Below, piece after piece: positions 1,654 through 59,234 of a DNA stretch of 64,000 bases (the stretch's first letter is position 1; every line of letters begins with the position of its first letter). Made by a program: the position numbers and the translations under genes. Source of the stretch: an uncultured Phycisphaerales bacterium (GTDB lineage Bacteria > Planctomycetota > Phycisphaerae > Phycisphaerales > UBA1924); contig CALMPG010000016.1 in NCBI GenBank assembly GCA_937871915.1, positions 1-64,000 on the forward strand. The letters are read 5' to 3'. The notes under the pieces were generated by a model, which did no database searches, was not told the DNA's origin, and saw nothing but the letters and a program-made list of their open reading frames with translations.

Positions 1654-1884
1654 CTGATGCGCTTCCATCGGGTGTTGATGGGCGTGCAACAGCCGCTGTT
1701 GCGCTCACACCGATCGCTGATGCGGCCCGCCCGACGGCTGGTGCGCTCACATGAGCCGCTAATGAGGCCCACACAACCCCAGATGAGCGCTCAGAAATGA
1801 TTTCTGAGCGCTCAACAATCGCTGATGCGCGCACAACAACGCTTGTTGCGCGCAGGGAGCGGGCTGGTGCGGGTCCGAAAACCG
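1654..1884. repeat. Array 1: eleven degenerate 21-bp tandem repeats
   Basis: Units begin at 1654 and then every 21 bases through 1864, each starting with a variant of CTGATGCGC. The plus-strand consensus is about CTGATGCGCTCACANCGGNCG. Because 21 is a multiple of 3, every frame gives a spurious heptad peptide. Neighbouring units form nested palindromes, for example 1784-1814 (TGAGCGCTCAGAAA, 3-nt centre, perfect complement) and 1685-1701 (GCAACAG CCG CTGTTGC). There is no gene-like coding signal: no ribosome-binding site and no conserved domain in any frame. The rest of the 694-bp gap between the pilin-like gene and the FN3 gene shows nothing else I can name. Confidence 0.8.
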
Positions 1885-2216
1885 TGGAATACCGCCCGAT
1901 GCGGGTGTGAAAATGCGCAAGACGTGCGGTGCTGAACGATTGTGCGGCCTGAGCGGACCCGCGTTGTGGGGATCACGCTGGGGAAAACAGGCCTGCGCGG
2001 CATTCTCGGAATATTCCGCACATTCCGCACACGCGGCTCAACCCGCGAACTCGGCACGACGATGACGGCCACCGAAAAGTCGGCTCGGGCTTCTGGTGTT
2101 GCGTGTTCGGGAGCGTTTCCCGGTGCGTCTTCGCTCATGTGTTCCTGGCGTTCGAGACGAACGCGCCGAGCCATCCTCTTGCTCCTCCATCGCGGAGGGG
2201 AAAGGTCCGGTGATGT

Positions 2217-2909
2217 ATGGGCACAGTCTTGCCCAGTGACAATCGTGAGATGGTGCTGTTCGGTTCCATGCACGTCGATCCGTGGACGACCAACAAGGTG
2301 GCCCTCTCCCTCAGCGATGCGCAGGTGCTGGCGATGAAGAACCTGTCGCTGACCGCGTCGGACGCCCTCGACGCCGCCGAGGTCGCGCGGCAGTCGGCCA
2401 AGGCCGCCACCGAGACGTACTACGCGGCCGTGCGGGCCCTGCGCACCAAGGCCGCCGAGTGCGTGCGCGTCATCCAGAACACCGCGAAGACCACCAACAA
2501 CCCCGCGCTCTACGGCCTGGCCCAGATCCCCGCCCCCGATCCGCGCTCCCACACCGGCACGCCCCCCGCGCGGCCGACCGATGTGCGCGCCGGGCTGAAC
2601 TCCGACGGCTCCATCACGCTCACGTGGAAGTGCGCCAACCCGCGCGGCGTGTCGCGCGTGATCTACTTCGTCAAGCGCAAGCTCAACGGCGAATCCGACT
2701 ACTCCCTCTTCGACACCGTGGGCGAGAAGTCCTGCACCGACGCGACGATCCCGCGCTCGACGGGCGGCGCCTCGTACATCATCACCGGCAAGGCCGGCTC
2801 CCTCAGCGGCCCCTCCAGCGAGCAGTTCACCGTCACCTTCGGCGTCGGGGGCGGCGGGGCGATCGTGATGACCACCAGCGCGGATGGGTCCATGAAACTG
2901 GCGGCGTGA
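2217..2909 (+). CDS. FN3-domain protein with helical N-terminus (paralogue A)
   Basis: A 230-residue protein. Residues 30-100 are Ala-rich and helical with K-T-T-N-N-P-A-L-Y-G-L. A Pro-rich linker leads to a fibronectin type III-like domain at about 120-210 (S-I-T-L-T-W-K-C-A-N-P, then K-R-K-L-N-G). The tail ends M-K-L-A-A. There is no signal peptide. A paralogue with the same architecture, linker and M-K-M-A-A tail is at 14753-15472. The start is supported by a leader shared with that paralogue: GGAAAGGT-C-x-GGTGA lies just before ATGGGCA in both. Such proteins are widespread in Phycisphaerae, but I know of no function. It lies 330 bp downstream of 21-bp array 1. Confidence 0.8.
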   Translation: MGTVLPSDNREMVLFGSMHVDPWTTNKVALSLSDAQVLAMKNLSLTASDALDAAEVARQSAKAATETYYAAVRALRTKAAECVRVIQNTAKTTNNPALYGLAQIPAPDPRSHTGTPPARPTDVRAGLNSDGSITLTWKCANPRGVSRVIYFVKRKLNGESDYSLFDTVGEKSCTDATIPRSTGGASYIITGKAGSLSGPSSEQFTVTFGVGGGGAIVMTTSADGSMKLAA

Positions 2910-11362: not shown

Positions 11363-12613
11363 ATGGCCACCATCTCCTCCCAGTCCACCACCCACCCCGT
11401 CGCCGTCTCCCCCAAGCCCACCGACCCCCTCACCCTCATCGACGTCGACCACGTCCGCTTCTACTGCGGCAACGCCAAGCAGGCCGCCTACTTCTACTGC
11501 CACTGCTTCGGCTTCACCTGCGAGCAGGTCTCCGACCAGACCACCGGCTCCCGCGACGCGGCCCACTACTACCTCACCCAGGGCAACATCCGCTTCGTCC
11601 TCACCTCCGGCCTCACCAAAGACCACCCCGCCTCCCGCCACGTCGCCCTCTACGGCGACGGCGTCAAGGACGTCGCCTTCACCGTCCACGACGCCGCGGC
11701 CGCCTGGAAGCAGGCCGTCAAGAACGGCGGCACCTCCGCCCAGGACCCCACCGAGCACACCGACAAAGACGGCACGGTCATCACCGCCGCGATCAAGACC
11801 TACGGCGAGGTCATCCACACCTTCGTCCAGCGCCCTGGAGGGGGGGCCGATGGCAAGGGCCTCTACGCCCTCCCCAACATCAAGCAGGCCCACGGCACCG
11901 GCACCGGCCGCTTCATGCCCGGCTTCCAGCAAACCAAGCTCTTCAAGAACCTCAACGACCACAACGCCAAGCACCCCGCCGGCCTCAAGTACACCGACCA
12001 CCTCGTCGGCAACGTCGAGCTCGGCAAGATGAACCACTGGGTCAAGTTCTACGAGGATGTCCTCGGCTTCAAGATGTTCATGTCCTTCGACGACAAGGAC
12101 ATCGCCACCGACTACTCCGCCCTCATGTCCAAGGTCATGGCCTCCGGCCAGGGCCTCATCAAGATGCCCATCAACGAGCCCGCCCCCGGCAAGAAGAAGT
12201 CGCAGGTGCAGGAGTATCTCGACTGGCACAACAACACCCCCGGCGTCCAGCACCTCGCCCTCCGCACCGACGATGAACTCCACTCCATCGCCGCCCTCCG
12301 CTCCCGCGGCGTGGACTTCCTCTCCATCCCGGATTCCTACTACGAGCAATGCTGGAAGCGCATCGAGCCCATGCTCGCCGCCGCCGGAAAGTCCGTCAAG
12401 GAAGACCACCAGAAAGTCCGCGAACTCGGCATCCTCGTGGACGCCGACGATGAGGGCTACCTCCTCCAACTCTTCACCAAGCCCCTGCAGGACCGCCCCA
12501 CCCTCTTCTTCGAAATCATCTGCCGCCGCGGCTCCCAGGCCTTCGGCAAGGGCAACTTCAAGGCGCTGTTCGAGGCGCTGGAGTTGGAGCAGGAGAAGCG
12601 CGGGAATCTCTGA
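11363..12613 (+). CDS. hppD: 4-hydroxyphenylpyruvate dioxygenase
   Basis: A 416-residue protein with two vicinal-oxygen-chelate domains. It converts 4-hydroxyphenylpyruvate to homogentisate in tyrosine degradation, or as the first step towards tocopherol- or pyomelanin-type products. The three iron ligands are recognisable: His in L-K-Y-T-D-H-L-V-G-N, His in P-G-V-Q-H-L-A-L, and Glu in P-T-L-F-F-E-I-I-C-R. The C-terminal motif G-F-G-K-G-N-F appears as A-F-G-K-G-N-F-K-A-L-F-E. ATG 11363 has GAGGAA upstream. No homogentisate dioxygenase or other tyrosine-catabolism gene is adjacent. Confidence 0.92.
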   Translation: MATISSQSTTHPVAVSPKPTDPLTLIDVDHVRFYCGNAKQAAYFYCHCFGFTCEQVSDQTTGSRDAAHYYLTQGNIRFVLTSGLTKDHPASRHVALYGDGVKDVAFTVHDAAAAWKQAVKNGGTSAQDPTEHTDKDGTVITAAIKTYGEVIHTFVQRPGGGADGKGLYALPNIKQAHGTGTGRFMPGFQQTKLFKNLNDHNAKHPAGLKYTDHLVGNVELGKMNHWVKFYEDVLGFKMFMSFDDKDIATDYSALMSKVMASGQGLIKMPINEPAPGKKKSQVQEYLDWHNNTPGVQHLALRTDDELHSIAALRSRGVDFLSIPDSYYEQCWKRIEPMLAAAGKSVKEDHQKVRELGILVDADDEGYLLQLFTKPLQDRPTLFFEIICRRGSQAFGKGNFKALFEALELEQEKRGNL

Positions 12614-12624
12614 GTCCCGCTCCC

Positions 12625-12775
12625 CACGAGCCCCGAGCGTAAGCGAGCGGGTGCCTCGGTCTTCGCCCCAACGGGGCGACCGAATGTAGCCACGGGTGGA
12701 ACGACGGCGCTTCGCCGGAGTGGAACCCGTGGTACGGTGAACATTTGCCGTCTCGCCCCGAAGGGGCGAACGAAG
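12625..12775. repeat. Dispersed intergenic repeat (AYARGS type) with hairpins
   Basis: This stretch contains AGCCCCGAGCGTAAGCGAGC, whose complement is the CGCTTACGCTCGGGGCT word found scattered in planctomycete genomes, then CCCCAACGGGG, a pair of inverted CCACGGGT/ACCCGTGG words at about 12691-12731, and CGCCCCGAAGGGGCG. It is compound hairpin DNA with no coding signal, typical of REP-like intergenic repeats, and runs directly into 21-bp array 2. Confidence 0.6.
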
Positions 12776-12786
12776 CGTCCGGGGCG

Positions 12787-13038
12787 ATGCTCTTCCCGCC
12801 CCGCCGGATGCTCCATCGTCGCAGGACGATGCCCCATCCGGACCCGGCGATGGGGCATCGGGGCGAGGAGAAACTCCTTCGCGGCGGCACGATGCTCCGC
12901 AGGCTCGCAAAGATGCTCCATCGTCGCGGCAGGATGCTCCTCCGCGGCGGCAAGAAACCCCTCGGGCTCGGCAGGATGCTCCTCCGTGTCGGCGCGATGC
13001 TCCATCGTGCCGACAGGATGCTCCATCCCGGTGGCTCG
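12787..13038. repeat. Array 2: twelve 21-bp tandem repeats
   Basis: Twelve units begin at 12787 and every 21 bases through 13018, most starting ATGCTCC; three start AAAC or ATGG. The consensus is about ATGCTCCATCGTCGCGGCAGG. Read in any frame it gives heptads (plus: M-L-H-R-R-G-R; minus: G-A-S-C-R-x-D). No unit is interrupted and the phase is exact over 252 bp. The array shares the unit length and the ordered words ATG..CTC..CATCG..TCGC with array 1 at 1654-1884. I see no ribosome-binding site or domain, so I treat it as non-coding DNA. The remaining 13039-13282 shows nothing else. Confidence 0.85.
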
Positions 13039-13282
13039 AAACAGTTTCTGTGTGCGTCCGCGGAGCGATTACACCCCCTCCCGCGGCGTTTTCGCGCTGC
13101 TGGCGCCCACCCGCGGCCCCCGATCGCGGGACAGGGCGGCAGAGTTCAACTCCCGGGTTCACGCGGGCCGCGCGCGTCCGAGGGTCACGGCGCTGGGTCG
13201 AGGGTGGGGGGTTGGGGGGTGGGGGGGAGGAGAGTCTCCCCGGTGGGGCTACCCCGTATCGTTCCGCGACTGGAGGCCGGGC

Positions 13283-14437
13283 ATGAGCGGAGGCATGTTT
13301 CTAATGCGTGACGGCGGCGAACTTGTTGAGATGCGAGAGTCGCCGTACGACTCGGAGGACCAACTTCAGAAGTGGCTCGCCAGTCACCCCAATCTCCTCG
13401 CCGGGGATCAGGTCGATCCAGAGTTTCCGCGCCGCTGGCTTCTGGTACGTCGCGAGGCAGGCGTTCCGGGCGAGGAGGACGGCGGCAGCCGTTGGTCGCT
13501 GGACCACTTGTTCCTTGATCAGGATGCGATCCCGACGCTCATCGAGGTCAAGCGCCGTGCCGACACTCGAATTCGCCGTGAAGTCGTCGGACAGATGCTC
13601 GACTACGCCGCCAACGCGATGGTCTATTGGCCGGTGCAGACCATCAGGGCGATGTTCGAGGCGCGGTGCATCAAGGAGAGCATCGATCCCGCCGTGTGTC
13701 TGGCGTCGTTTCTCGGCGAGTCCGAGGACGCTTCACAGTTCTGGACCAAGGCGGATACGAACCTGCAGGCCGGTCGGGTGCGGCTCGTGTTTGTTGCCGA
13801 CGAGATACCGCGGGAGTTGCAACGGGTCATCGAGTTCCTGAACAACCAGATGCAGCATGCGGAGGTTCTGGGCGTGGAGGTGCGGCGATTCGAGGGGCCG
13901 CCCGGCACGGAGTTTCGCACGATCGTGCCCCGCGTGGTCGGCCAGACGGCGGAGGCTGAGCGAAGGAAGCGGCCGGGTGTGGTGAGGAATCCCGAGACTG
14001 TTTCCGCCGACGATCTTTTGAAACTTCTTGAGAACGCGGGTGGGCCGGCCCAGCGGGCCTTGGGCGAGCGGGTGTTGCAGTGGGCCGACCACCGCCGGCT
14101 GGAGCGTGGCGGCACCGCCGTCCAGATCATGTTCCGCGCCCGCGATGCCGCCGGGGAGATCTGCCGAGTCCTCGGCCTTCGCTACGAGCAGAAGGACTTG
14201 AAGCCGGCGCAGGGAATCCTGACGCTGCGGAAGGACATGCTCCAAAGGACGCAGGCGTTTGGTTCGGAGGATCGCTGGAAAGACCTGTTGAAACGACTAG
14301 GGGATGCCACTGGAGGGCATGTGCTGCGAACCGATGGGTGGTTTCCGTACATTCGCCTGGATCAAATCACGCCGGAGCAACTTGAGGCGGTCTTGATGGT
14401 TATGGATTGGGCTATCGAGGAAGTCCGGTCCCACTGA
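13283..14437 (+). CDS. PD-(D/E)XK nuclease-like protein
   Basis: A 384-residue protein. The N-terminal 120 residues have the PD-(D/E)XK fold signature seen in NucS/DUF91-like and related nucleases: Y-D-S-E-D-Q-L-Q-K-W-L, then S-L-D-H-L-F-L-D, then L-I-E-V-K-R-R-A-D-T, then R-R-E-V-V-G-Q-M-L-D-Y-A-A-N. Asp, Glu and Lys are the predicted metal-site residues and Gln the helix residue. The rest is unknown. ATG 13283 is chosen because GGAGG sits 8 bases upstream and it begins the conserved part; the open frame extends back through the repeat array and is not credible there. It may be a DNA-end or defence nuclease; substrate is unknown. Confidence 0.75.
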   Translation: MSGGMFLMRDGGELVEMRESPYDSEDQLQKWLASHPNLLAGDQVDPEFPRRWLLVRREAGVPGEEDGGSRWSLDHLFLDQDAIPTLIEVKRRADTRIRREVVGQMLDYAANAMVYWPVQTIRAMFEARCIKESIDPAVCLASFLGESEDASQFWTKADTNLQAGRVRLVFVADEIPRELQRVIEFLNNQMQHAEVLGVEVRRFEGPPGTEFRTIVPRVVGQTAEAERRKRPGVVRNPETVSADDLLKLLENAGGPAQRALGERVLQWADHRRLERGGTAVQIMFRARDAAGEICRVLGLRYEQKDLKPAQGILTLRKDMLQRTQAFGSEDRWKDLLKRLGDATGGHVLRTDGWFPYIRLDQITPEQLEAVLMVMDWAIEEVRSH

Positions 14438-14752: not shown

Positions 14753-15472
14753 ATGGGCAACAACATGCCAACGAAGATCGGTGATCTCATCAACTGGTGC
14801 ACCGTCCACGTGGACCTGTGGTCCGTGAACGCCACCAGCGTGGGGCTGACCGCCGCGCAGGCCCTCCAGTTCAAGAACGCCGTCAACACCATGGTCTTGG
14901 CCAACTCGTCGGCCGAGGCCGCCCGCCAGGCCTCCAAGGACGCGACCATCACGCTCCAGACCAATGTTGATGTGGTCCGCACGCTCGGGGCGGCCTTCGT
15001 CGCTGTCATCAAGGGGTATGCCGAGACCACCAACAACAACAACGTCTACGCCCTCGGCGGCGTCTCGCCCAGCGACCCGCCCGGCGTCGTGCCCACGCCC
15101 GTGGCCCCCAACCAGTTCGGCGCGAGCATCAACCCCGACGGCTCGCTCACCGTCAAGTGGAAGGTCACCCAGCCTGCGGGGTGCACCAACGTGTCGTACT
15201 CCGTCTCGCGGCGGCTCAACGGGGGCACCGGCCCGTTCGTGCTGCTGGCCAACGAGGGGGGCCGCAACAAGTCGTTCGTCGATACCACGCTCCCCATCGG
15301 CGTGGACAAGGTCGAGTACATCGTCCAGCCCCGCCGCGGCGATGTCGCCGGCCCGCAGAGCACCGTGTTCATGGTGCAGTTCGGCTCGGTCGCGGGCGGC
15401 GGCGGCATGTCGATCACATCCACGGAGACGGGGCCGATCGACCTCGGGGCCAGCATGAAGATGGCCGCGTGA
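14753..15472 (+). CDS. FN3-domain protein with helical N-terminus (paralogue B)
   Basis: A 239-residue protein, paralogous to 2217-2909. It has a helical region (A-E-A-A-R-Q-A-S-K-D-A), E-T-T-N-N-N-N-V-Y-A-L-G-G, a Pro-rich linker and an FN3-like domain (S-L-T-V-K-W-K-V, S-R-R-L-N-G-G), ending M-K-M-A-A. There is no signal peptide. The leader GGAAAGGTTCAGGTGA before ATGGGCA matches that of paralogue A. An intrinsic terminator follows. The 315-bp gap upstream holds a GC-rich hairpin near 14475-14500 (GGGGGCC GCCCCC GGGGGGGCC) and otherwise nothing recognisable. Confidence 0.8.
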   Translation: MGNNMPTKIGDLINWCTVHVDLWSVNATSVGLTAAQALQFKNAVNTMVLANSSAEAARQASKDATITLQTNVDVVRTLGAAFVAVIKGYAETTNNNNVYALGGVSPSDPPGVVPTPVAPNQFGASINPDGSLTVKWKVTQPAGCTNVSYSVSRRLNGGTGPFVLLANEGGRNKSFVDTTLPIGVDKVEYIVQPRRGDVAGPQSTVFMVQFGSVAGGGGMSITSTETGPIDLGASMKMAA

Positions 15473-59080: not shown

Positions 59081-59198
59081 GCTGCGGGAGGCTACGCCGC
59101 GCGAGGTCGGCGCCCTCGGCGCGGCCGATGAGGTTGGGGCGGGGAGGGCGGCCGCGGGCGAGTGCTTGACGGACCTGTGGCGATTGGGCTGGTGCGGC

Positions 59199-59234
59199 GG
59201 GGGGGGGGGGGGGCGGGGGCGGGGGGGGGGGGGG
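59199..59234. repeat. Poly-G tract (G15, C, G5, C, G14)
   Basis: An almost pure G stretch of 36 bases upstream of the lipoprotein start. It can form G-quadruplex structures and is prone to length change; it may also be a sequencing or assembly problem. Confidence 0.9.

Follow-up and report, generated by a model that had tools for sequence, protein, structure and literature searches.

Array 2, a tandem repeat within a 64,000-nucleotide stretch of an uncultured Phycisphaerales genome (hereafter the window), is one among dozens of arrays of equal unit length and different spelling, most of which lie about 300 bp before members of a single gene family. The arrays have a fixed period and a tendency towards dyad symmetry, they keep a fixed side and distance relative to the gene, they are co-distributed with the gene family, and they turn over rapidly. 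Our preferred reading, which we put forward tentatively, is that array 2 and the gene downstream of it are the two parts of a dispersed locus, in which the array may serve as a double-stranded DNA platform for a protein that affects the downstream gene. Genome-wide counts come from sampled contigs totalling about 1 Mb, out of a genome of 4.24 Mb in 208 contigs; the relatives named below are Phycisphaerales MAGs.

Structure and surroundings of array 2

The initial annotation had described twelve uninterrupted 21-bp units, and this description was borne out: the array measures exactly 252 bp, contains no indel (Table 1) and is the top lag-21 stretch of the whole window, with a lag-21 identity of 0.61 compared to 0.32 after shuffling (2000 codon-block shuffles, sd 0.031, maximum 0.42). 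The first column of the unit is always A and the last always G; most units retain ATGCTCC, while AAAC occurs in two. The C30 and C103b arrays of the same genome end in a similar way to array 2, with GGAAGAGTTTC and GAAATCGTTTC, respectively.

Table 1. Features of the window discussed in the text
Feature	Position	Strand	Description
Array 1	1663..1893	+	About eleven 21-bp units, dyad-symmetric (p 0.002), sequence unrelated to array 2
Paralog, array 1 locus	2217..2909	+	230 aa, ~320 bp downstream of array 1, C-terminus MKLAA
HPPD-like gene (glyoxalase superfamily)	11363..12613	+	Upstream neighbour of array 2
Array 2	12787..13038	+	Twelve 21-bp units, consensus ATGCTCCATCGnnGCGGCAnG, core GATG-CTC-CATC / GAAA-CTC-CTTC
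Terminal palindrome GAAACAGTTTC	13039..13049	.	Ends array 2; readable as a partial thirteenth unit
Array 2 3' flank	13039..13141	+	78% identical, ungapped, to the flank of the C30 array
Nuclease-like gene	13283..14437	+	Between array 2 and the paralog; start uncertain (13283, 13308 or 13331)
Paralog, array 2 locus	14753..15472	+	239 aa, helical N-half, FnIII-like C-half, C-terminus MKMAA

Synteny with the relatives breaks right after the HPPD-like gene, and no orthologous array was found downstream of HPPD in these genomes. Just 5' of array 2, positions 12640-12785 hold a hairpin-rich repeat (ACGGGGCG...CCACGGGTGGAAC...CGAAGGGGCGA), within which a sub-threshold match to the Rfam family Acido-Lenti-1 falls on the minus strand (12664-12699). 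Elsewhere in the window, a G-rich tract with 36 nearly pure G occupies positions 59186-59234.

The annotation had also placed array 2 ahead of a PD-(D/E)XK gene. The arrangement is as described, with 244 bp separating the array from the ATG at 13283. This gene gave no match in Pfam; it matches the PADLOC phage-defence candidate PDC-S11 over residues 12-190 (E 1.1e-10) and, judged by that profile, is a candidate phage-defence gene. The spacing (245 bp in the annotation) is, however, probably incidental, since foreign genes also lie in four other array-gene gaps. Indeed, all five long gaps hold one: the PDC-S11 match at array 2, a Y1 transposase (C103), a kelch gene (C18), a SIR2-like gene (G012:C15) and an ORF (C116). 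The partner of array 2 is thus probably not the nuclease-like gene but the paralog that follows it. Note that in both C207 and C22 a DNA methyltransferase gene precedes the array.

Arrays 1 and 2 share unit length but not sequence

A common origin of arrays 1 and 2 had been proposed on the basis of their equal unit length and of ordered words present in both, with an alignment no better than shuffled controls named as the refuting outcome. The words are visible by eye but not significant. Circular, both-strand gapped alignment of the consensus units gave a score of 14 compared to 17 for shuffled units (p 0.956), and the entire arrays reached a local score of 8 compared to 11.2 for column-permuted controls (p 0.997). 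The argument therefore fails by its own standard, and a single sequence origin was rejected, the arrays aligning worse than the controls (p 0.96-0.997). The equal unit length is meaningful, as it reflects a genome-wide 21-bp class, but it does not denote sequence kinship. The arrays that are in fact related to array 2 in sequence, all from the same genome, are C30:665-892 (local score 67 compared to a null of 10.7), C103b and C116. Arrays 1 and 2 each lie upstream of paralogs from the same gene family, and these two paralogs are 39% identical.

The arrays accompany one multicopy gene family

The ORFs that follow array 1, array 2 and the C51, C142 and C73 arrays are all paralogs of this family, which numbers 22 copies in this genome, 25 in G012 and 40 in G025. 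Its members, of about 230 aa, comprise a helical N-half, a Gly linker and an FnIII-like C-half (supported by a structure model, pLDDT 68), and end in Ala-Ala, usually as K-x-A-A. The array-linked paralogs matched no family in Pfam or NCBIfam, no Rep or other DNA-binding family was recognised in their product, and with a stricter cut-off the 246 genomes sampled from the phylum yielded no member beyond this GTDB family. The C-terminal Ala-Ala, nearly invariant across paralogs (it ends at 15472 and 2909 in the window), is reminiscent of ssrA-type degrons.

Across this genome and its GTDB family, non-coding arrays are dominated by a period of 21 or 42 bp; the contigs sampled from this genome hold about a dozen arrays, nearly all mutually unrelated in sequence. 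An array lies upstream of 27 of the 31 paralogs in a first set (G000, G012, G021), of 24 of the 44 in a second, where a downstream array was seen only once, and of 19 of the 24 in a third. Sets 1 and 2 overlap by four loci; with the overlap removed, about 67 of 95 paralogs have an upstream array, as compared to a control rate of 2.5% of 1.5-kb stretches. The distance is about 200-500 bp: uninterrupted gaps in set 1 range from 23 to 511 bp, and 17 of the 22 measure 181-419 bp. At the genome level, G013 and G017, which belong to the same GTDB family and have no copy of the gene, yielded no array in 400 kb, whereas the gene-bearing G000, G012 and G025 yielded 18 array calls in 1.19 Mb (two of the three calls in G012 resemble coding sequence). 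In G026, paralogs are present and none of the four checked has an array. Solo arrays with no adjacent paralog also occur (C30, C103b and C51b), and C51b has its array and spacer sequence in common with the C44 locus.

Chief among the rival explanations is a neutral satellite process that proceeds in steps of 21 bp. A fixed-step copying error (slippage or template switching, with quasi-palindrome correction giving rise to dyads) would act in tolerant intergenic DNA, and whole-locus duplication would account for the association with the gene. The rapid turnover of the arrays fits this scheme, as no similarity was found between the arrays of proteins that are 50-55% identical; the solo copies, the modest covariation described below and the in-frame valS array, whose place is taken by another array in the G012 ortholog, fit it as well. 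Array and protein divergence were not significantly correlated in G000 (Mantel 0.11, p 0.11), and the correlation was negative in G012 and G021. By contrast, dissimilar arrays recur on the same side of, and at the same distance from, the same gene family in many genera, and sister genomes that lack the gene lack the arrays. Since array sequence is replaced while placement is kept, co-duplication alone should not preserve such placement. We regard a purely neutral origin as possible but doubtful.

The arrays probably act as DNA rather than as RNA or coding sequence

The units are more dyad-symmetric than expected from base composition (combined z about 11 over 15 arrays, column permutation), most strongly in C97, C103b, C142a and array 1, and only weakly in array 2 taken by itself (p 0.094). 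When right arms were swapped between units, pairing dropped at the base-centred dyad (z 3.2) and was unaffected at the alternative one (z 0), which indicates that the arms co-vary unit by unit; the value of 3.2 is somewhat inflated because the choice of dyad phase relied on the same data.

Alternatively, transcription of the array could yield a leader or a separate RNA made of tandem hairpins. Indeed, the arrays fold better than dinucleotide shuffles (median z -3.4 and -4.0 for the two strands; -5.7 sense and -2.9 antisense for array 2), and the 52-nt satellites of B. coagulans are transcribed (PMC8625621). However, DNA dyads of any kind fold on both strands, and sense and antisense folding did not differ over 33 arrays (p 0.61); G-T mismatches were not in excess but below expectation (209 compared to 225), and the Rfam search of the array returned sub-threshold matches only, with no family near threshold. 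Neither strand-specific pairing nor G-U compensation, which would point to a structured RNA, was thus found. The lack of a G-T excess, together with the equal folding of both strands, favours a constraint at the DNA level, and we hold the RNA explanation to be unlikely.

Since 21 bp equal seven codons, the arrays might instead encode heptapeptide repeats. The C97 array (G000) is an in-frame insertion in valS (L058:14239-18285), the valS ortholog of G012 (L244) carries at that site another in-frame 21-bp array of different sequence, and array 2 has open frames. The heptapeptides of the two genera are unrelated (SKGLETL-type and EAPARFV-type), so that at this site position and period persist while the sequence gets replaced. 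The array inside valS is an exception in a mostly non-coding class: all sense frames are closed in 3 of 33 arrays, none stays open through to the gene start in 12 of 22, and the mismatches between the flanks of array 2 and C30 (about 100 bp) show no codon-position pattern and no third-position bias. Coding on the valS model is accordingly most improbable as a general explanation. Another repeat, 30-36 bp long (GGGTACCCCGACACTCCGTGGCGGG), is dispersed over L034:6108, L040:2172, L058:17596, L079:11010 and L080:6323, and it too occurs in frame inside valS.

Array 2, C30 and C103b each follow a gene and share its direction, as would a terminator or an mRNA 3'-end element of that gene. However, array 2 contains no terminator-like site (a GC stem followed by a T run), and it is the downstream gene that is constant across loci, the upstream genes differing in kind and strand. 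We give this reading very little weight.

A proposed protein platform upstream of the paralogs

We return to the platform reading, in which the locus would consist of an array of 21-bp dyads, a spacer of about 200-500 bp and a gene of the multicopy family. The array would act as double-stranded DNA and not as an array of RNA hairpins; a dimeric protein would bind it once per two helical turns and then spread along it, and the bound protein would set the state of the downstream gene, in terms of its expression or of chromosome structure. At the array 2 locus, the PDC-S11-like nuclease gene would have entered the gap later. Several observations speak against this reading. The motif common to the arrays is weak (score 76 compared to a null of 55.5, sd 2.6) and partly due to related arrays, which makes a single sequence-specific binding protein doubtful; the dyad symmetry of array 2 is of p 0.094, arrays were found at 0/4 paralogs in G026, and some arrays are paralog-free (C30, C103b, C51b and that in valS).

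A broader possibility, which we consider rather doubtful, is that array and gene form a previously undescribed dispersed element. Each paralog would then be served in cis by its own fast-evolving dyad array, the gene would be the first genetic partner for constant-length satellites, and the loci would receive incoming defence genes and other mobile genes.

Comparison with known systems

Plasmid iterons are sites of about 20 bp, in helical phase and of locus-specific sequence, which lie a few hundred bp in front of a gene. The arrays resemble them in all these respects, but the paralog product belongs to no recognised Rep or DNA-binding family, and dozens of copies are dispersed in a bacterial chromosome. 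The regularity of the arrays recalls CRISPR; however, the whole 21-bp unit repeats and spacers are absent, the units of array 2 being contiguous. As extragenic palindromes, with a Y1 transposase in one gap (C103), they also recall REP/BIME elements and their RAYT transposases (PMC3733652), from which they differ by their head-to-tail 21-bp organization, their variable sequence, the occurrence of a transposase at one locus only and the lack of a constant tag tetranucleotide of the GTAG/CGTC type in the consensus units of 33 arrays.

The closest known counterparts are bacterial tandem repeats of constant size (20-21 or 52 nt) and variable sequence, whose function is enigmatic; Subirana and Messeguer remarked on the correspondence to two helical turns and proposed a polymerising protein on DNA or a small RNA (PMC8161180; see also PMC6749651 and PMC8625621). 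Like the 20-21 nt satellites, the arrays have a fixed unit of 20-21 nt (40-42 nt when doubled), form many families of unrelated sequence per genome and are mostly non-coding; they are also restricted to a group, being present in G000, G012 and G025 and absent from the 400 kb of G013 and G017. They are therefore a Planctomycetota case of this known class. What sets them apart is a dyad symmetry borne out by tests, a constant place upstream of a single gene family and a distribution shared with that family. The gene link, the fixed gap and the dyad units appear to be additions to the class, and the gene link and the dyads appear to be new; a term search of Subirana and Messeguer's Bacillus paper found no mention of planctomycetes, palindromes or upstream genes. 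Constant-length satellites without sequence conservation have until now been reported as an enigma without a genetic partner, and a lineage in which they are fixed before one gene family, and absent from the sampled sisters that lack it, makes satellite function experimentally testable.
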